From Mycoplasmataceae bacterium (lineage in GTDB: Bacteria > Bacillota_I > Bacilli_A > Mycoplasmatales > Mycoplasmoidaceae): DNA of 64,000 nt. Positions 18,853 to 44,662 of the stretch are shown here, piece by piece; positions within the stretch are counted from its first letter, which is position 1; every line of letters begins with the position of its first letter. The notes below the pieces were generated by a model. The model searched no databases. It had not been told where the DNA came from and saw only the letters and a program-made list of their open reading frames with translations. A program made the position numbers and the translations under genes. Where the stretch lies: positions 1-64,000 of the forward strand of contig JAISBY010000011.1 in assembly GCA_031265955.1 (NCBI GenBank), written 5' to 3'.

Positions 18853-20115
18853 TTAAATAATTCCTTTTTCGTTTTGAATTAGAATTTTAGTATGTTCGTA
18901 ATTATAAATATTGTGAGGGGTAGCACCTGGCTCGCAACCTATAGTGGCTACTCATTCATGATTTTGAATGTCTAAACCCACAGATTTGTAAGCAGCTCAA
19001 GCTAATTCAGAACAATATCATGACGGACTATCAATATCTGTTGACATAGTCATGAAAAGTGGCAAATAGTAATCTTTGAATAATTGTTTTTGTGCAAAAG
19101 CTACAACTTGTTCCCTTTGTGATTGATCGCTATTAGCAATGTGTAATATTGATAAATTGTCAAGATCAATTCTTTCATCACAAACTGCACAATAATTTAC
19201 ACCATATTGGTCAGGTTCAATACATTGAAGGTAACGAATTCCGTTAGCATCAGTTTTTCAACCGGTAATTATTCCCATATGTCCAGTGTTGACATCTCCA
19301 ATAGCGAATCCGTTAGCAGAATATACTAAATCACCAGCTTGAACTGTAGAGTAGTCATATTTAGTGTAAGTTGGCATTTCAAAGTTCGGAAGTGCTTCAA
19401 GGTCAATTTTGTCTGAGCTTAACACATTACCATCGCCGTAGTGTTCACAATTAATTCCTAAATATCATGGGTTGCCATAGAATAAAGAAATTCAGTCTCA
19501 TAATCCCACACCCGGAGTGTAACGATTACATAATATTGGTTTTAATAATCCTTTAAAAATAGTTTCACGTAAACCTAATTCATTTTTAGCCCAATCTTTA
19601 ATTCTAAATTCGTCATTTAGCATTCCTTGGCATCAGTTGGTTGCAGCTGCACGTTCTTCAGGAGATAATAAAAACTTCATAAAGAATGTATCATTGATAA
19701 ATCAATTGAATATAGGCATAACAACTGGTTTAAATAATTGCAATGTCCCTTGAATTCAATCTGCTGGTTCGTAATCATATCAATGAAAAGGTGGTGCTTT
19801 TTCTAAACCGTTATTAACTACGTCAGTCAATTGATTAAAAAATGAGTTTACTTCGTCAAACGATAATTGGCTACGTTGAATGTTATTATTTTCATCCACA
19901 ATTCAACCTTCAGAACGTGCTGAAATGATCATTCCTGAAATCATATCAAGATCATATTTTGATTGGTTAATTTCATAGTCGTCTATTAACTCGGCGATTT
20001 TGTTATCACCAATATTTGAACATGATGTAACGGTTGTTGCTATTGTTGTACCAATACCGGCAACAACTAAAATTGAGCTTACGGTGATTAGTGATTTTTT
20101 AAAGTTTAATTTCAT
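18853..20115 (-). CDS. Lipoprotein with permuted papain-like (NlpC/P60-type) domain (420 aa)
   Basis: A signal peptide (FKKSLITVSSILVVAG) leads to a lipobox-like VTSC with Cys 32. The C-terminal half carries GDLVYS, then GHMGIITG with a His near 277, and later WYCSELAWAAY with a Cys near 366. His before Cys, with an aromatic-Cys-Ser-Glu sequence, is the order of circularly permuted NlpC/P60 relatives (YiiX/YebB-like), which are cysteine peptidases or amidases. The middle is Trp-rich and unassigned. It may cut peptides or acyl groups at the cell surface. The substrate is unknown. It has its own terminator and stands alone. Confidence 0.72.
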
Positions 20116-20198
20116 AATGCACATATTAGAACATAGACAACGTTTTGTTCAACCATACATTAACAATTTAGAATAAAAAAATGTAGTGGATGTAGTGG

Positions 20199-22839: not shown

Positions 22840-23328
22840 ATGGGAAATAAGGCTCAAAATAATAAAACAACGCCAATCATCGTTCTTGTATCAATTAATG
22901 AATTTGCAGACAAACTCAAAGATATTAGAAGTATTTGTAGAAAGTACAAAGCAATAGAAACTTTAGATAATGCCACTAACACTATTTTGTTCTATTTTCA
23001 TGATAATGGATTATGGTTACGAGCAAAACAAGAGATTCAACTACTAGTAGTTGGGCAGATAAATTTCAAGTTATCGTCGAAACGTGTTATCATAATGGAG
23101 AAAATGAAAGACACAATTGTTGAACCGCCACAACCACCAACCTGATTTCTAGAATTTCAGAAATGAATAGTCAATAAATTTGAACAAATTGATGCTCACT
23201 TTGATAGACAAGAGCAGTTTAATAGTAACGTTATTTCAAGACTAGATAAAATAGAAACAGATATCAAAAAGATTGATAATCGTTTGGATAGAATTATTAA
23301 GTTTAATAATTTAAAAGAATGGATTTAA
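22840..23328 (+). CDS. Hypothetical coiled-coil protein, paralog A (162 aa)
   Basis: The N-terminal 80 residues form a predicted alpha/beta domain (IIVLVSINEFADKLKDI, then NTILFYFHDNGLW). A strongly conserved linker, MKDTIVEPPQPPTWFLEF, leads to a coiled-coil tail with heptads (FEQIDAHFDRQEQF, RLDKIETDIKKIDNRLDRI) ending FNNLKEWI. It shares the whole layout with the gene at 42402-42893 and the tail with a mini-ORF behind recA. No characterised family recognised; the tail recalls DUF16-type coiled coils of mycoplasmas (weak). It is controlled by the recA-type promoter element. Confidence 0.78.
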
Positions 23329-24448: not shown

Positions 24449-26095
24449 ATGAGAAAAAAGAGGAAAATGTTGCAAATATTACCTGCAGCCTTAATTTGCC
24501 AAGCCACATTAACATTTTCATCATGCGCTACAAAGCCATCGTTACCAAATGCAACTATTAATTTAGATACTAGTCATATAGTTTTAAATCAAACAAATGA
24601 TGTTGCCTCAATTAGTGCTAATGTAACACTATCTGACGGTTCAAAACCAACAAATGTTTTATATGACTTCTCGGCAACACATTCATTACCACTGCTATGC
24701 ATAATTGACGAAAATAGAAAAGATCGTAACACATTAGTAATAAGCCTAAATACTGGAGAGGAAGTATCAACACAACAAACCGTAGAAATTTACGCTACTT
24801 ATCCTAATTCTCAAAACAAACCAGTAGTAGTCATCAGAATAACTGTTGAAAAATTTATTCCATCATTCCCTAATGTTGATATTTCATTGAGCAAGACTGT
24901 TGTAAATTTAAACCAAAGCAATCACTCCGACACAATTAATGGCACTATAACTATTTCTGACTTAACACCTCCAATTGATATTACCTATGAGCATGATAAC
25001 GCCGATAATTTTCCTATTAGCTTTCAACAAAGTGCTAATGCTTTGATTATTTCTCTACAAGTAGGTTCTAGAATTGAGAAGAATGAAATTATTTTAATTT
25101 ATGCTACATATCCAAAATCTAGTAACAAACCAAGAGTCGAAATTCAAATCAATGTCGAACAATATATACCACCAGCACCACCTCCTGAAGCTTGGGATGC
25201 AACATGAGTGCCAAAAGAAAATTTAATTATCAATAATAATGTTTTATCTGGTGTTACTTCTCTATCATCAAAAACAATTTTACACATACCAAAAGATGTT
25301 ACCACTATATCAGCAAATGCATTTTCAAAGAATAAACTCGATGGCATTACTCAAGTTGAATTTCCATCTGATAGTAATTGTGTTACCATCAGTTCTTATG
25401 CTTTTGCTGAGAATTCAACCATTGCAAACATCGTTTTGTCTCCTAACATCACTAATCTTGGTGAATCATGCTTTATGTTGTGTTCGTCATTACAAGAATT
25501 GGATTTTTCAAAAAACCAGAAAATCACTAACCTTCCAAAGTGGGTTGGAGCACATTCTTCAAATTTAAAAACATTAATTTTACCTCCTAATTGTATAACC
25601 ATAAGTAATGAAGCATTTGAAGATAGCTTAGGCTTAACCGGAAACTTAATCATTCCTAGAAGTGTAACTACTATTGGTGAAGAAGCGTTTTTAAATGCAG
25701 GTTATAACGGACAGGGAATAGCGCTATTTTTTGAAAATAATTCCACACTTAAAAGCGTAGCGTATGCTTCTTTTGCAGTAATGAAATGTACCGGAACACT
25801 TAATTTACCATCTAGTTTAAAAACATATGCTAACAATTCATTTAACAGTAATATGGCTGATTTGATTATTGTTAATAGTTCAAGCGGGAATACATTCGGC
25901 ACTAATGTTTTGGATGGTACAAAAGCAAAAAGTCTACATTTAAATATTGATAACTATTTTGCTTATCCAAAAGATTTCTTATCATTTTCATACATCAAAG
26001 AAAATGCTGACGGAAAAATTTATGTCCCAAATTCACTCTTGGATGATTTCAAGAGTGGCTGAACTGATTTTACCACTAAAATCTCTTCGCTTTAA
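24449..26095 (+). CDS. Lipoprotein with two Ig-like repeats and BspA-type LRRs (548 aa)
   Basis: The signal peptide ends in a lipobox, TFSSC (Cys about 26). Two tandem beta-rich repeats of about 105 residues follow, each ending in IYATYPxSxNKPxVxIxI or close. A proline-rich hinge PPAPPPEAW leads to about 290 residues of BspA/LRR_5-like repeats (ISANAFSKN, ISSYAFAEN, IGEEAFLNAG), closing with IYVPNSLLDDFK, the usual BspA C-terminal cap. Such proteins bind host proteins or neighbouring cells. One UGA joins the two halves. Its partner is unknown; surface exposure is well supported. Confidence 0.82.
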
Positions 26096-35024: not shown

Positions 35025-37211
35025 ATGCCATTAAAAAAGAAAGTTATTCGTTCATTAATTTCTGCGGTTCCTTTAGGGGTGACGGTGGCTAGTTTAACAG
35101 TAAATTTAACTGCATGTAGCACTTCAATCACTTTGCTAACTTTATTAGGAAATGGTCAAAACGGTACCATTGATACAACCATAGTAACTTTAACTAGCGA
35201 TAAACCAATCATCGGATTAAGCAATAATGACATTTCTTTCACCAATGCTAATGTGGTTGTTAATAGTGTTACTACCGACAAGAATGTTTATACCATTAAC
35301 ATAACAGGTGATTGAATTAATAATACAACAGTCGGTATTAAAGTTTCTAAAAAAGGTTATAGGTTCGCTAACAAAACATCATCAATAACTTTATGAAAAG
35401 ATACACAAGACTATGTTGACGTTACCAATTTACGTCAAAATGGTGGCATGTTTGCAACTGTTGACACGAAATCTTTATCTTTTGATGCGGATAGTGTCAT
35501 TCCTGATTTAACCATTGATAATATTACCTTCACTAATTCCAAAATTAACAAGGGTACATTGAGTTTCACTGGCACAACTTATACGATTACTATTACTGGT
35601 AATTGAGCTAACAACGATACCACCACTATGACGATTGACAATCCAACGGGAGATGTCATTACCAACGATACTACTGCCGTCACTCTTTACAAAGACACCC
35701 AAGAATATGTTACCATTTCTAATTTGCGTCAGAATGGTGGTGAGTCTGGCACTGCTGGCACGGTGTCTTTGTCTTTTGATGCGGATAGTGTCATTGATAA
35801 TTTAACCGTTGGTGATATTACTTTCACTAATTCCAAAATTAACAAGGGTGAGTTGAGTGTCAGTGGCACAACCTATACCGTTGCTATTACTGGTAATTGA
35901 GCCGACAAGGACACCACTACTATGACGATTGAAAATCCTGTGGGAGATGTCATTACGAACGATACTAATGCTGTTATTTTATACAAAGACACCCAAGACT
36001 ATATTACCATTTCTAACTTGCGTCAGAATGGTGGTAAGCCTGATACTGCCGACACGGTGTCTTTGTCCTTTGATGCAAATGCTGCCATTCCTGGTTTAGC
36101 CGTTGGTGATATTACCTTCACTAATTCCAAGATTAACAAAGGTGAGTTGAGTGTCATTGGCACAACCTATACTGTTACCATTGATGGTACTTGAGGCAAC
36201 ACCGATACCACTACTATGACGATTGAAAGTCCTGTGGGGGATGTCATTACAAATGATACTAATGCCGTTACTTTGTACAAAGACACCCAAGAATATGTTA
36301 CCATTTCTAACTTACGTCAAAATGATGGTAAGTCTGGTACTGCCGACACGCAGTCTTTGTCTTTCGATGCGGATAGTGTCATTGATGATTTAGCCGTTGG
36401 TGATATTACTTTCACTAATGCCAAAATTAACAAAGGTGAGTTGAGTGTCAGTGGTACAACTTATACTGTTACCATTGATGGTACTTGAAGTAATACTGAC
36501 ACCACTACTATGACGATTGAAAGCCCTGCCGGAGATGTCATTACAAATGATACTAATGCCGTTACTTTATACAAAGATATCAGACCACAAATTGTTGTTT
36601 CTGATTTACAATCTAATGGAACTAGTGACGAATCAACTACCACCAACATTAGTTGAACTATGAATAATCAATCTATTAGATTTACCGTTGACGATATTAC
36701 CTTAACCCCAGGTGGTACTGCAACTATTAATAAAGAACATGTTTATTATGATGTTGACACTGGAAAATATTTTTTGGAAATTTCTGGTACTTGAGAGGAT
36801 TCTACCAGTGCAACATTAAGCATTACAAAAGCAGGATACAAATTTACAATAGATAACCCAACCGTTACGTTATACAAAGATAATCAAACTCACATCCATT
36901 TGTTAACTTTGGTAGCAAATGGTGGGGATGGTCATTGGACCAGTCAATTGTATCTATTTATTGATGATTTAAGTAAGTGAGATGATAGTTGAACTGCAGA
37001 TGATAATATGACATTTACAATAGATGGTAATCCAGTTTTTGCTGGCAAAGGACTAACGATTGAAAAAAACACAGATTATATTACTATTGTTTTAACAGGT
37101 GACGCTCAGGCACAATTTAGTAATGGTAAAATGGTATATTTTGAAATGTCGGCTTCAGGTTATGAATTTACTGGCGGTCCTCTAACGGCAATACTAAAAG
37201 GAGGTCTTTAA
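35025..37211 (+). CDS. Repeat-rich surface lipoprotein (728 aa)
   Basis: Lipobox LTAC (Cys about 31) after a clear signal peptide. The body is a beta-sandwich-like repeat of 98 residues. Each unit begins LYKDTQxY and includes ISNLRQNGG, SLSFDADSVI, ITFTNSKINKGELS and TYTVxI. Four units run from 35391 to 36566 with exact 294-bp spacing, then diverged units follow to the C terminus. Codons within repeats are nearly identical, so copy number can change by recombination. It is third in the surface operon, 2 bases behind the previous stop. Confidence 0.85.
35391..36566 (+). repeat. Four tandem 294-bp repeats in the surface lipoprotein
   Basis: Units start at 35391, 35685, 35979 and 36273, each beginning with a Leu-(Tyr/Trp)-Lys-Asp codon set; a diverged fifth begins at 36567. 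The period is exactly 98 codons. Similarity is high at both DNA and protein level, pointing to recent expansion. Confidence 0.9.
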
Positions 37212-37433: not shown

Positions 37434-37949
37434 TTATTTTATTTTGTAAGTCACAATATTAGATACTTGAGTGTATGGCACTTTATATTTGTTGTGATAT
37501 ATCACCTGAGCTTGAAAGTTAATATTTTGTATTTTTGTATTATCATTGGTAGTTAAAACAAACGATAAATCTTGTCCAACATTAGGAAAAGGTCCTTGAT
37601 TTACTTGCAAATTTGCTTGTTCTTCTAATGATGAAATATTTTTACTATTTCATATTGTGTTATCGACCAAAGATAATATTTGTTCTTTTCCACTATGATT
37701 AACGAATTTCACTTGCAAATCTTTAATAACTGCTAAAAACCCTTCATATCGCACAATTTTCATACTCAAAGTAGCAGAATTATTTGTTTCAACCAATGTT
37801 AACTTAGCTTTAGGTAATTTATTTTGAACAGATGTTGACGACCATATAAATGGAGAAGCAATTAACGCACCACCAGCTAATCCAAACATACCATGGCCAA
37901 CAATTTTTAATATTTGGGTTTTAGATAATTTTTTTATTGGTTTTACCAT
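37434..37949 (-). CDS. Hypothetical membrane-anchored protein (171 aa)
   Basis: The N terminus MVKPIKKLSKTQILK is basic and followed by one hydrophobic segment (IVGHGMFGLAGGALIASPFIW). The other 130 residues look extracellular and beta-rich. One UGA Trp near 100 joins the two parts. No lipobox and no known domain. It is divergent from the PTS gene cluster starting at 38034. A ATTTAGCCAAATTT stretch at about 37970 resembles, but is not, the recA-type element. Confidence 0.65.
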
Positions 37950-38033
37950 TACTCAATAAGTATAAAATATTTAGCCAAATTTATATGTATTAATATCTAC
38001 TCTCAATACACTATAAAATGGTATAAATCTTTG

Positions 38034-38291
38034 ATGGAATTTGTTGATAAGTACAAAACTAAAAATGAATCGTCCGGATGGAATGCATTAAGTAGCAAGC
38101 GAAAACGTTTTATTTATCTTAGTATGATTATTGGTATGTTAATAGCTGGATTAGGCATTGCTTTATTAGCCACTAAATCTTACTTAATTACAGGTTGTAT
38201 TTTGGCAATAATTGGTACGGTTATTTTAATTTCCATAAGCATTCTATGATTATTTTGAGCTCGCAAAATTTCTAAAGAAAGTCAAAACTAA
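38034..38291 (+). CDS. Small membrane protein before the PTS permease (85 aa)
   Basis: Two hydrophobic helices (IYLSMIIGMLIAGLGIALLA and SYLITGCILAIIGTVILISI) with a basic N-terminal stretch SSKRKRF and a charged end. The start is ATG 38034; a TTG at 38031 is possible. The stop lies 12 bases before the PTS gene, so they are cotranscribed. It may be a helper of the permease, but no family was recognised. Confidence 0.6.
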
Positions 38292-38303
38292 ATAAAGGGA
38301 ACT

Positions 38304-39893
38304 ATGGCGCAAGATTACAACAAAATTGCAAAAGATATATTTGATGAGGTACAAAAATACGGTATTGTTAGTGCTGACATATGCATGACACGTCTACGAA
38401 TAAAACTAAAAGCTACTAAAGTAGATTTACCTAAATTAAAAAAGATTCCAGGTGTCTTAGGTGTCATTGTAACTGGTGATGAATTTCAATTTGTAGTTGG
38501 CCCTGGTGTAGTAAAAAAAGTTTATGCTAGTTTTAAACCGTTATTAGATTCCGATGTTGCAGTAAGTTCTAAAGTGGCAGCTAACTGTGCTCCTAGTTTG
38601 AAAGAAGTTGCTGATCAAGTTAAAAGTGAAAATAAAAGTAAACGCCAATCTAATTTAGTGGCGATTGCTTTGAGTAAATTTGCAAAGATATTTACACCAC
38701 TAATTCCAACTTTTATTGCTGCTGGTATTTTAGCAGGAGTAGCAGGCATATTACAATCTATTTATACAACCGTTGATATTACCGGTAGTAGAATTTGAAC
38801 TAACACTACTGCTAGTGAATGATACTGAGTATTCCAATTATTGATTTCAGCATGATCTACCGGATTCTTAATAATAGTAGGTTATCGTTTTTCCGAAGCT
38901 TTTGGTGGCACAGGGTGAATTGGCGCGCTAATTGGTGCCATCTATACACCGTTGGCTGGTACTGCTTTTGCAAGCATGTATAATGCCACAGCACAAACAT
39001 TCTTAGGCATACATGTTGTTCAAAATCATTTAGACACATTTTGATTAACTTCGGGATTGGTAACATTAGGTAATGATGGTAATCCTACAGGTGTTGGTAC
39101 ACCTCATGGATCAATATTTGGAATTATACTAGGTTGTACTGTGGCAATTTATTTAGAAAAATATATTACCAAAGTAATGCCTGTACAATTGGATACTGTC
39201 GTGACTCCGTTTTTAGTTGCTTTATTTATGGTATTCATTAACATCTTCTTAATTATTCCAGTTTCTGGTTACCTATTCTTTGGCATGACTTGATTGTTTA
39301 GTAAATTATGCCGTGGCCCAGGAGCCCCATTCGGCGATATGGTTTTAGCATCAGTGTTCTTAATTGCGGTAATGTTCGGAATTCATCAAGGTTTTTTACC
39401 AGTATATGTAGCGATGATTCAAGATCCAAACATTGGCATTAACATACTATTCCCAGTGTTAGCGTTAGCTGGAGCGAGTCAAGTTGGATGTGCGTTAGCA
39501 ATGTGAGTAATTGCTAAAAAAGGCGGCACATTTCGCAAACAAATTCAAGGAGCGATTATTCCTGGTTTTCTAGGGATTGGTGAACCATTAATTTACGGAG
39601 TTTCATTACCAAGAATAATCCCTTTTATTTCAGCTTGTGTTGGCGCAGCAGTACCAGGATTCTTCGTTGGCGCAATTAACGCTTGAGGTGGAATTGACAT
39701 GGGATTAAATTCTATTTCTGGCCCTAGCGGTATCTTAGCTATTTTTATGATTACTAGTGCGAAGGGGATGGGAATTGGTATCGCTGTTTATACCTCCGCT
39801 TTACTAATTGGTTATGCTTCTGGATTCGCAACTGGTTTACTAGGTTATCGTTTGTTCAAAAACAACCCAAAAATTAATTGGAATTTAGAATAA
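38304..39893 (+). CDS. PTS EIIBC permease, probably MurNAc or a related glucoside (529 aa)
   Basis: A glucose-superfamily PTS component. The EIIB domain has its phosphorylated Cys 27 in [13 protein letters not shown] linker of about 40 polar residues leads to the EIIC domain with around ten membrane helices, [11 protein letters not shown] near 358 and the signature [10 protein letters not shown] near 422. There is no EIIA. Sucrose, trehalose and MurNAc permeases look alike; the MurNAc call rests on the neighbouring MurQ and the YbbE-like hydrolase. It is convergent with those genes, with 20 bases between. A symbol such as murP would be plausible but is not proved. Confidence 0.8.
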
Positions 39894-39913
39894 TTTCCGA
39901 AAATACCTTACAT

Positions 39914-41370
39914 TTAATCAATAATTCGAGCATCGTAGATTCACTCAGAAATAACTTTACCAATTCGATTGCCAGAGGAAACACCATCTGGTAAAAAATA
40001 ATGATTTTTAGCAAAGAAATTATTTCCGTCGACATCGTGATTAAATAAAGGACTATGAATCGCGTTTGTTAAAATACAAATTGTTAAATGGTTTAGTGGA
40101 TCGATTATGGTGTACGTACCAGTTCAACCATCGTGGCCATAACTTGATGTTGATGCAACATCACCGAAAATATAGTTATTGGCATTACCATAATGTGTTT
40201 TTCAGCCTGTATCAAATTCAAATGTATGAGTTCCTGGTGCAGCAATAGGTGTAGTGACATTATTTACAATTTGTTTATCAAAAAATTTATGATTTCCATA
40301 TGTACCATTATTTAACATCATATTCATTAAAACTGATAAATCACAAGCAGTCGAAAATAAACCAGCATGTCCAGAAGCTCCATTCATACAGTAATATGCC
40401 TTTTCATCATGAACTTCGCCCATAATTGTTTGCGTACGAATATCGTCTCATGATCTTTGTAGTTCTCTTGTATTACCAATTAATTCGGTAGCCGCCATGC
40501 GTGTTTTGTTTAACCCTTTGTCTAAAGGATTAAACATAGTGTTTTTTAAACCTAGCGGTTTATAGATTTGATTTTCAGTGTATTCGTCAATTCATAACCC
40601 TATAACTTCGTGAATCAATATATCTACTAACATAAAATCAACATCACTATATGCTTGTACCGTCCCTGGTTTATTTTCTAAATCTAACATCAATATTTTC
40701 TCTAACGCTAAATTTTTATCTCTAAATTTTAAGTTAGGATTAGTAGCGCCTGTTACAAAATCAGATGGATCAGGAATAAAACCAGAAGTATGAGTAAGAA
40801 TTTGACGGATGGTAATGTCACCTCATTCAACTATATCCCCCCCATTTCTTGTTGCTTTTGAAAACTTGGAATATATTTACTTAATTTATCATCTAATGAT
40901 TCAATTTTGCGCTCATAAAGTAATTTTTGAATTGCAAACATTCCTGCATACATTTTGGTATTACTAGCTAAATCATATAAGGTATTAGTAGTAGCATCAA
41001 CTTGTTCGACAGCTGGTAACTCTTCGTAATAACCATTTCTGGGTCAAGTGGTGTCTCCAGTATCACCTTGTGAAAAACGAAGAGATTTACCAAAGGCTTT
41101 ATTGTAAACCACTTTGCTATTTTTAGTAACACAAATTTGAAGACTTGGAAATCCTTGAGAAGGATCACCATTACTATCAGTGATTACTCTTTCGATTTGT
41201 TCGTTAATATTCCCGTTAATTATATCTAGTTTGATTGGATCAAAACCAGCTGCAGTTGGATTGTTTGTGTAGTCTTGTAATGTTGGTCCGTAGGAAGAAC
41301 ATGAACTTAAGCTTAAAGCACTTGTGCCGACAATAATAGAAGTCAAACCCAAAACATTACGTTTCTTCAT
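39914..41370 (-). pseudogene. Beta-lactamase-family serine hydrolase lipoprotein, frameshifted at a G7 tract
   Basis: The signal peptide ends in LSLSSC (Cys 24). The serine hydrolase motif SNTK (Ser 136, Lys 139) lies in LYDLASNTK; after the shift come THTSGFIPDP, AYSDVDFMLV (the Y-x-N/D site) and GHDGWTGT (the HxG box). This is the class C/YbbE group of penicillin-binding-like hydrolases. The first 180 codons are in one frame and the rest in another. The join falls at seven G (40837-40843), and eight G would restore one frame. So it is either switched off by slippage, or decayed, or misread. It lies 2 bases behind murQ, as ybbE accompanies murQ in Bacillus. Confidence 0.8.
40837..40843 (-). 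repeat. Poly-G tract (7) at the hydrolase frameshift
   Basis: Seven G in the codons Met-Gly-Gly. At seven the frame hits TAG two codons later; at eight it reads on into the motif-bearing second half. All other parts of both frames are open, so this tract is the only lesion seen. Confidence 0.8.
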
Positions 41371-41372
41371 AA

Positions 41373-42287
41373 CTAACCTATTATTTTTCTAAGATCTTGA
41401 TTATTTACCTTCAATAATTTTAATGCATCTTGATAATTTACTTTTTTTGAAATCATAACAACCGCTGGCTTGACTTGATTGTGTGTGGTTTGCATTATTT
41501 TTTTAATTTGTTTATCGTCTGCATTAGTAATTTTTTTAACTAGGCTATGAGCACGTGCAATTAATTTCTGATTTGTTGGTTGCACATCCACCATTAAATT
41601 ACCATAAACTTTACCAATTTTAATCATGGCGCCAGTAGACAACATATTTAAAATCATTTTTTGAGCAGTACCTGATTTCATTCGCGTTGAACCAACTATT
41701 GTTTCGGGGCCAGTAACTGCTTCAATTTTAATTTGAGCAATTTCGCCAATTTCAGAATTACTACTTGTAGCAACACTAATGGTTTTACACCCTAATTTAT
41801 TGGCATACTTTAATCCACTAATAACATACGGCGTTCTTCCGCTAGCGCTAATTCCCACCAACACATCTTTCTTAGTTAATTTAATTCTTTTTAAATCTCT
41901 AACGCAGGCAGCTTCATCATCTTCAGCACCTTCAATTGGATTACGAATGGCTTGGTCGCCACCCGCAATTAAACCAATTACCAATTTATTGCTTACACCA
42001 AAAGTTGGTGGCATTTCACTAGCATCAAGCACGCCAAGGCGTCCGCTCGTACCAGCACCAATATAAACTAAACGACCACCATTTCTAAAACAAGCAGCAA
42101 TGGCACGAATGCCGTTGGCAATAGCGGGAAGCTGAGTTTTGACAGCCTGAGTTATCTGTTCATCTTGTTCATTAATTAATTTAGCTAATTTTAATGTACT
42201 AACCGAATCAATTGCCGCAGTATGTTCGTTATGCCCCTCTGTTGATATTTTTGATAAATTAACAGTTTTAATATTGCTGTTGCCCAT
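41373..42287 (-). CDS. murQ: N-acetylmuramic acid 6-phosphate etherase (304 aa)
   Basis: Cleaves the lactyl ether of MurNAc-6-phosphate to GlcNAc-6-phosphate and D-lactate. SIS-domain features: STEGHNEHTAAIDS, GRLVYIGAGTSGRLGVLDASE, GLIAGGDQAIRNPIEGAEDD, GISASGRTPYV, GPETIVGSTRMKSGTAQK and LMVDVQPTNQKL. Length is normal with the C-terminal helical subdomain present. It leads the lipoprotein hydrolase (2-base gap). A mollicute has no wall of its own, so the MurNAc must come from other bacteria. Confidence 0.95.
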   Translation of the reverse strand: MGNSNIKTVNLSKISTEGHNEHTAAIDSVSTLKLAKLINEQDEQITQAVKTQLPAIANGIRAIAACFRNGGRLVYIGAGTSGRLGVLDASEMPPTFGVSNKLVIGLIAGGDQAIRNPIEGAEDDEAACVRDLKRIKLTKKDVLVGISASGRTPYVISGLKYANKLGCKTISVATSSNSEIGEIAQIKIEAVTGPETIVGSTRMKSGTAQKMILNMLSTGAMIKIGKVYGNLMVDVQPTNQKLIARAHSLVKKITNADDKQIKKIMQTTHNQVKPAVVMISKKVNYQDALKLLKVNNQDLRKIIG

Positions 42288-42401: not shown

Positions 42402-42893
42402 TTATTCAATTAAATGGTTAAGTCTAATGACATTGTCTAAACGATTGCCAATCTTGTCAACTTTTTCTTTTAGTGGATTAAAGTCGCTTTTAACCCAATC
42501 ACCAAATCAAGCCGGTTGATGAGTATCCATATTCTTAAGGCGTTCATCCTGTTTATCAAACCGAGCATCAATTTGCTCGAATTTATTTACGATTCATTTT
42601 TGAAATTCTAAAAACCAAGCAGGTGGTTGTGGTGGTTCAACAATTGTGTCCTTCATTTCCTCCATTATGATAACACGTTTTGTTGATAATTTAAAATTTA
42701 CACGATCAACGGAACGTTGAATTTCTTCTTTTGCCTTGGTTCATGCGTTATTGTTATAAAAATGAAAGATGATAGTGTTAGACAAGACATCCGAGATCTC
42801 TTTTCCATTGTTTTTAAGGCAAATTTGTTTAATTGTTGCGATTTTATCGGCCAATGTATTTGCTGATATATAAATAGTAATTGGTATAGTCAT
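42402..42893 (-). CDS. Hypothetical coiled-coil protein, paralog B (163 aa)
   Basis: Same layout as the gene at 22840: an alpha/beta N-terminal domain (ITIYISANTLADKIATIK, then NTIIFHFYNNNAW), the strongly kept linker STKRVIIMEEMKDTIVEPPQ with PPAWFLEFQKWIVN, and a coiled coil (FDKQDERLKNMDT, KEKVDKIGNRLDNVI) ending RLNHLIE. The linker is almost identical in DNA between the paralogs, while the ends differ. A GGAGAG site lies about 15 bases before the ATG. Function unknown; shared control with recA. Confidence 0.78.
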
Positions 42894-43258: not shown

Positions 43259-44662
43259 TTACGGTAATTTAAACCCTACATAAGATCAATCGTCCGGTAT
43301 ATTTGCTATGGGTTTATGCTCTCCTTGATTGTCATTCCAAGCTCATGCAGTAGTTGAATTATTGTTGTTGTAGTGAATTGTGTGATTTGCCCCAACCCCA
43401 CATTCATCAAAAGCTTGATTGCCAATAGATGTTGGATTACTAGAATTATTTCAATATACATCGGTTAAATTATTGCATCCGTAAAATAGCAGTGAGCCGA
43501 TACTAGTCACCCCTACTGGAATATGAATTTCTTTAAGACTTGTACATTTATAAAAAGTTGAATTACAAATTTTACCAGTTGCTTTGGCATTTGTTAAATC
43601 GATACTCTTCAAACTTGTGCATTCCGAAAAGGCTGCGTCAACGATAGAATTTTCCGAAGTAAATCAATCATTAAGAGAATCCTTCATATCACCAGAAATT
43701 AGTCCTGCTTTACGAATTCAAGTTTTCCCAATTGCAGCAACGATTGCTGCACCAACAATATTATTTCCTGATTTATTTTCTACATAAGCGAGATTACTTT
43801 TATTGATACTATTTTTTAATTTCTCAATTCCTGAAACTGTTAAGCTTGGACAGCCTTCAAAAGTACCATCGGCGATAGAATCAATTATCGTAGTCTTACT
43901 AGTTGAAGGGGTGATTGTTTCCAAATTTGTACATTCTTCAAAAACATTTATTCCAATAGAAAAAGTACCTCCTGGCAATAAAATTTCCTTAAGATTTTTA
44001 CACTGGCTAAATGCTCTTTTAGCAATAGTACCTGCAAAAGATGTTGACGACAAGTCAATTTTTTCTATTGATTCACAGCGGAAGAAGGCGCTGGCCCCAA
44101 ATAATGATAATGTAACGTTAGAATCTATAGGAAATAAGACATTTTTTAAACCAGTGCATTGAGTAAAAGCAAAATCTCCGATTGAAAGACTACCAGATTT
44201 TGGTAGCACCACGGTTTCAATCTTAGCACATGCAGCGAAGGCACCCATGTCAATAGAAAGACCAGATGTGTTATTTTCAAAAGTAATTTTAATGTTTCTT
44301 GCTTCAGTTGTTAGAATTGGATTTTCCATAAAAGCTTTTTCTTTAATAGAAGAAAAATTAGATAAATCTATACATTCGTATGCTGATGCAGCGAATGCTT
44401 TGGTTGTATCCTTTTTAAAACCACTCAATGCACCGTTTCTTTCAGCAAAATAGGTATCTCAATCTGGACTATTAGGTGACAAGGTTTTAGAAACTATTGG
44501 AGGTTGTGGCGGAATGTTATTTTGCTTAGTATGCCATATTGCATAGCCAATACCCAATCCAATTCCTCCAGATATAACGAACGAAGAAGCTATGCCTAGC
44601 ATAATTTTCCTTCTACGATTTTTCCATGATTTTAATCATTTTTGTATTTCTTTGTTTTCCAT
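43259..44662 (-). CDS. BspA-like leucine-rich repeat surface protein (467 aa)
   Basis: A short basic cytosolic end (LKSWKNRRRKIM) is followed by a single helix (LGIASSFVISGGIGLGIGYAIW) and no lipobox, so the protein is membrane-anchored with an outside C terminus. Then come about 350 residues of LRR_5/BspA repeats, for example GAFAACAKIETVVLP, FAFTQCTGLKNVLFP, RAFSQCKNLKEILLP and VFEECTNLETITP. Late Trp are UGA. It likely binds host or bacterial surfaces. It is divergent from the AG-repeat leader at 44988. Confidence 0.82.

Follow-up and report, generated by a model that had tools for sequence, protein, structure and literature searches.

N-acetylmuramic acid (MurNAc) is, to our knowledge, a sugar found only in bacterial walls. 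The closest characterised system for its use is the murQ-murP-yfeW operon of Escherichia coli, which encodes MurNAc-6-phosphate etherase, the MurNAc EIIBC and PBP4B. Bacillus subtilis has the cluster murQ-murR-murP-amiE-nagZ-ybbC(namZ), and Staphylococcus aureus recovers MurNAc-GlcNAc with a mupG-murQ-murP-murR operon, in which MupG is a 6-phospho-N-acetylmuramidase and the MurP/MupG chemistry is known (PMC6262408). Among wall-less bacteria, reports of MurNAc uptake and of murP/murQ date back to 2013 for Spiroplasma (PMC3563533, PMC4607517, PMC5726471, PMC12453411), and feeding on the debris of walled bacteria was stated for the Hepatoplasmataceae in 2024 (PMC10928387). The MurP/MurQ core is already known in mollicutes, with nagA and nagB also present in several cases, and the idea of debris feeding is already published.

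The window analysed here (the whole stretch of 64,000 nt, positions 1-64000 of contig 9) belongs to a genome of 0.98 Mb in 11 contigs that is 89% complete, so that gene absences in it are not final. The genome decodes TGA as Trp (code 4). Nine in-frame TGA codons within murP identify it as a code-4 organism's own gene, and since the neighbouring genes use the same code, foreign contamination was ruled out. Translation of 37434-42287 with code 4 gave two small proteins, a permease, a hydrolase in two pieces and MurQ (Table 1). The permease gene is convergent with the hydrolase-murQ pair, the members of which are 2 bp apart. It is likely that the permease, hydrolase and murQ genes belong to a module for uptake and catabolism of MurNAc, probably also of MurNAc-GlcNAc, with which a wall-less mollicute would feed on the peptidoglycan of other bacteria.

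Table 1. Features of the MurNAc locus in the window and related genes on other contigs of the same genome (C, contig)
Feature	Coordinates	Strand	Length	Evidence or remark
171-aa membrane-anchored protein	37434..37949	-	171 aa	weak, sub-threshold Pfam DUF5028
85-aa small membrane protein	38034..38291	+	85 aa	kept upstream of murP in relatives
murP, PTS EIIBC for N-acetylmuramic acid (predicted)	38304..39893	+	529 aa	NF007152, tree
PBP4B/AmiE-like lipoprotein, C-terminal piece	39914..40846	-		other frame; NF002968, E 2e-85
G7 tract (C7 on + strand)	40837..40843			hydrolase frame break
PBP4B/AmiE-like lipoprotein, N-terminal piece	40831..41370	-	179 aa	NF002968, E 3e-22; Pfam Beta-lactamase
murQ, MurNAc-6-phosphate etherase (predicted)	41373..42287	-	304 aa	TIGR00274
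nagA	C3:178-1302			adjacent to nagB
nagB	C3:1323-2021			adjacent to nagA
mupG, 6-phospho-N-acetylmuramidase (predicted)	C5:50165-51283			in L194; 215 bits to MupG_N

The same three genes that make up the E. coli set are adjacent in the window, and both the window MurP and the hydrolase form clades with the E. coli proteins. Unlike the E. coli arrangement, the window genome lacks a detectable MurR, the hydrolase carries a lipobox and is interrupted by a change of frame, mupG and nagAB lie at other loci, and there is no wall of the organism's own to recycle. An earlier, sequence-only reading of this DNA had matched the locus to the core of the Bacillus murQ-murP-ybbE cluster. The three genes were borne out, with murQ, murP and a muropeptide hydrolase of beta-lactamase fold shared with B. 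subtilis, but the E. coli set is the closer counterpart, and MurR, NagZ and NamZ of the Bacillus cluster were not found in the window genome. As in S. aureus, MurP, MupG and MurQ are all encoded in the genome, and MupG lends the module a Staphylococcus-like component; unlike in S. aureus, mupG is on another contig, MurR is missing, a PBP4B-like lipoprotein is added and the organism has no wall of its own as a source of MurNAc-GlcNAc. The resemblance to Spiroplasma and the Hepatoplasmataceae, likewise wall-less, lies in murP and murQ; within open-access literature, covered non-exhaustively and in part, their MurNAc reports make no mention of a PBP4B-like hydrolase or MupG. In Candidatus Tyloplasma litorale, murP-murQ adjoins a SIS-domain gene resembling MurR, a gene absent from the window genome.

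The remainder of the pathway was found elsewhere in the genome. The sequence-only reading had proposed a search for nagA/nagB and an EIIA; besides the adjacent nagA and nagB, a single-copy EIIA-Glc is adjacent to EI on C7, and HPr is encoded on C2. In the proposed pathway, MurP would import MurNAc or MurNAc-GlcNAc as the 6-phosphate, with the phosphoryl group supplied via EI, HPr and the single EIIA-Glc. MupG would then cleave MurNAc-6P-GlcNAc, MurQ would remove D-lactate to leave GlcNAc-6P, and NagA followed by NagB would yield fructose-6-P, all of these being predicted activities. At the cell surface, the PBP4B/AmiE-like lipoprotein would most likely strip the stem peptide from foreign fragments, which may originate from the gut or from neighbouring bacteria, and the sugar could serve the cell as a nutrient.

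The earlier statement that the organism makes no peptidoglycan agrees with the gene content: E. coli MurC, MurD, MurE, MurF, MurG, MraY, FtsI, FtsW and DdlB had no match in the 89%-complete genome, while E. coli RsmH and FtsZ queries did match. MurR, NagZ and NamZ, previously noted as missing nearby, were not found anywhere in the genome by the searches made; the E. coli MurR query had no match in the 89%-complete assembly, and a whole-genome search for NagZ-family proteins or NamZ found none there or in the four related genomes of the genus with murQ. With MupG, NagZ could be dispensable for the pathway. The window-genome MupG is 63% identical to the G006 copy. It lies beside other PTS genes, by sequence mannitol-like and cellobiose-like, rather than beside murQ, and the MupG family includes proteins of other specificity (PMC6262408); both points count against the proposed pathway. 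Only in the relatives G003 and G006 is mupG next to murQ, as in S. aureus, and there it directly follows murQ (L091 3807-4937; L093 8443-9558). Since these two murQ-linked copies are only 28% identical to each other, two MupG lineages have occupied the same spot.

Linkage and co-occurrence were compared across the genus. In four genomes or arrangements of relatives the module genes keep together, with the order reshuffled: G003 and G006 have an operon murP-hydrolase-murQ-mupG, and the order that is convergent in the window genome is divergent in G027. In G021 the genes are dispersed, with a MurP 83% identical to that of the window on a different contig from murQ. Among 36 genomes of the genus, murQ was present in five, all of which have a full nagA. 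MupG was found in 4/5 of the murQ-positive genomes vs 0/31 of the others, and so was the hydrolase (p = 8e-5 for each, or 6e-4 each without the window genome, with shared ancestry ignored in both calculations).

Two small proteins accompany the locus. The sequence-only reading had set its span at 38034-42287; the permease and MurQ do fall within it, but its start is a separate 85-aa membrane protein. This protein has homologues of 65% identity in G021 and 47% in G027 that sit with murP in both, matches nothing in Pfam or NCBIfam, and is possibly an accessory of the MurNAc uptake system. In G021, a 33% identical homologue of the 171-aa protein is encoded between the genes for the small membrane protein and MurP, and the association of the 171-aa protein with the murP locus is tentative. 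Just upstream of the cluster, 35025-37211 (+) encodes a 728-aa lipoprotein-like protein with highly similar tandem repeats of ~98 aa.

The YbbE-like serine hydrolase lipoprotein described earlier is present with its motifs kept, but it is divided over two frames and no single intact reading frame was found in the window genome. The N-terminal piece has the lipobox LSSC and the SxxK motif (Ser136, Lys139). The C-terminal piece, open for 306 codons, has YSD, VHDE, GHAGLF and GHDGWTGT, the last conforming to GHxGxTG, and the frame switches exactly at seven Gs of the coding strand. The combined NF002968 score of the two pieces is near, yet under, the cut-off. Unbroken homologues of 498-522 aa occur beside murP and murQ in G003, G006 and G027, and the C-terminal piece is 67% identical to the intact G027 copy. 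Relative to G027, where synonymous sites are near saturation and ratios are rough, pN/pS was 0.34 downstream of the break and 0.47 upstream, and the downstream part is still under constraint. A generally frameshift-rich assembly was not seen: when 62 proteins of relatives that had a match were used as queries against the genome, only the hydrolase was split across frames.

Two explanations of the break are each tenable, though short of probable. One is a reversible phase-variation switch, by which slippage at the G tract toggles the surface hydrolase in part of the population. Genome-wide there are 79 G/C tracts of 7-10 bases vs 4-6 expected, four of them in the window (1885, 31015, 31822 and 40837), and tracts are also enriched in G027, G021 and G003. 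By a mechanical frame test, the reading frame runs on through 43 of the 79 tracts and changes at 28 (some probably intergenic), and 8 have no upstream frame. Many are located within the signal-peptide part of lipoprotein genes or shortly ahead of such genes, and those in signal peptides occur both out of frame (C2:821) and in frame (C5:83998). At the level of the genome, the tract excess and the occurrence of surface genes in both the on and the off frame look like a contingency-locus system, a large phase-variable lipoprotein repertoire, with which the tract of the hydrolase agrees, and the hydrolase is the sole split gene among the 62 checked. Against a switch at this particular site stand the shortness of the tract (7), its position in the mature domain and its lack of conservation among relatives. 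A scan of viral contigs with the flanking DNA, for a second strain with another tract length, gave no match. It is conceivable, though less probable than not, that poly-G phase variation acts on this surface enzyme for harvesting the wall fragments of other bacteria, such that just a fraction of cells would expose the penicillin-binding-type muropeptide hydrolase at once.

The other explanation, for which a modest degree of belief seems appropriate, is that the module is decaying and the hydrolase is a frameshift pseudogene, with murP and murQ persisting on free MurNAc or by inertia. The split itself, the same shortness, position and lack of conservation of the tract, and the absence of the whole set from most genus members are consistent with decay. 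The constraint and intact motifs of the open downstream half argue against it, as do the intact murP and murQ, with pN/pS of 0.17 and 0.30 relative to G027 (rough ratios, given near-saturated synonymous sites).

The activity of the lipoprotein was considered in light of its phylogeny. The hydrolase falls into the PBP4B/YfeW clade, together with YfeW of E. coli and a Bacillus protein (100/100), and Bacillaceae homologues encoded beside NagZ (AmiE-like) are its sister group; it is thus nearer YfeW than the NagZ-linked AmiE-like group, which was represented in the tree by Bacillaceae relatives of B. subtilis AmiE. Because of this placement, amidase and carboxypeptidase both stand. It is conceivable, though short of probable, that the lipoprotein acts in PBP4B fashion as a DD-carboxypeptidase or a binder of beta-lactams, protecting the cell or trimming fragments, and not as an amidase that frees MurNAc; the position of the AmiE-like group outside the hydrolase's own clade fits such a role. 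However, the linkage of the genes and the strictness with which the hydrolase co-occurs with murQ favour the sugar pathway, and AmiE of B. subtilis, whose gene belongs to the murQRP cluster, acts as a MurNAc-L-Ala amidase (PMC5061867). A further extracellular hydrolase could be encoded at 18853-20166 (-): this lipoprotein matches Peptidase_C92 (YiiX-like papain-fold amidases) weakly, at a score below threshold.

MurQ and the permease, both reported earlier, were recovered as intact genes. MurQ scored 375 bits against TIGR00274, above the equivalog cut-off of 302, and has the SIS fold. The residues Glu83 and Glu114 of the E. coli enzyme, which we take to be catalytic, correspond in the alignment to Glu91 and Glu122 of the window MurQ, and both are conserved. 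The mollicute MurQs form one group, adjoined at modest support by an Acholeplasmataceae sequence.

The permease, first described as a Glc-type PTS permease, has as its best curated model NF007152 'PTS N-acetylmuramic acid transporter subunit IIBC' at 377 bits, compared with 190 bits for sucrose and 106 bits for trehalose models; the score is below the curated cut-off of 516, which counts against the MurNAc reading. It is 39% identical to E. coli MurP (E 1e-87), with TreB reaching only 79 bits, and contains the EIIB cysteine motif CMTRLR. A maximum-likelihood tree of 41 proteins groups it with its relatives from the genus, with Ca. Tyloplasma litorale and with two further members of the order (100/99), and this mollicute group joins the MurP of E. 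coli and Klebsiella (100/100). Because it joins MurP apart from ScrA, SacP, TreB, BglF and AscF, it passes the check by phylogeny that the sequence-only reading had suggested, and it is predicted from sequence to be MurP. That it carries another glucoside (sucrose, trehalose or a beta-glucoside) beside murQ by accident is very improbable: MurP belongs to the same superfamily and the score is under the MurP cut-off, but the tree rules this out with 100/100 for MurP and 100/99 away from other EIIs, and murP-murQ linkage is conserved both within the genus and among further mollicutes. G003 has a second MurP-like permease (L167, G003:C19:30047-30991), 42% identical to the window MurP and located away from murQ.

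Relative to the accessible portions of the published reports, the new points are the PBP4B/AmiE-like lipoprotein, MupG and the G-tract break with possible phase variation. The module would extend peptidoglycan feeding by wall-less bacteria to a further mollicute lineage, and it places a lipoprotein from the penicillin-binding PBP4B/AmiE family in a cell that has no wall for it to remodel. Since the genome has many G/C tracts at lipoprotein genes, a link between nutrient scavenging and surface variation is possible. Growth on muropeptides provides a concrete niche test for such uncultured mollicutes.

Other proteins were observed in the window and beyond it. BspA-type leucine-rich-repeat surface proteins are encoded at 24449-26095 and 43259-44662, one of them just past murQ. 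Paralogues of ~163 aa occur at 22840-23328 and 42402-42893, and also near 13057 of C7 (G000:C7), with a common stretch like MKDTIVEPPQPPAWFLEFQKWIVNKFEQID; the paralogue tested had no Pfam match, and one C7 copy has a G9 tract just upstream.
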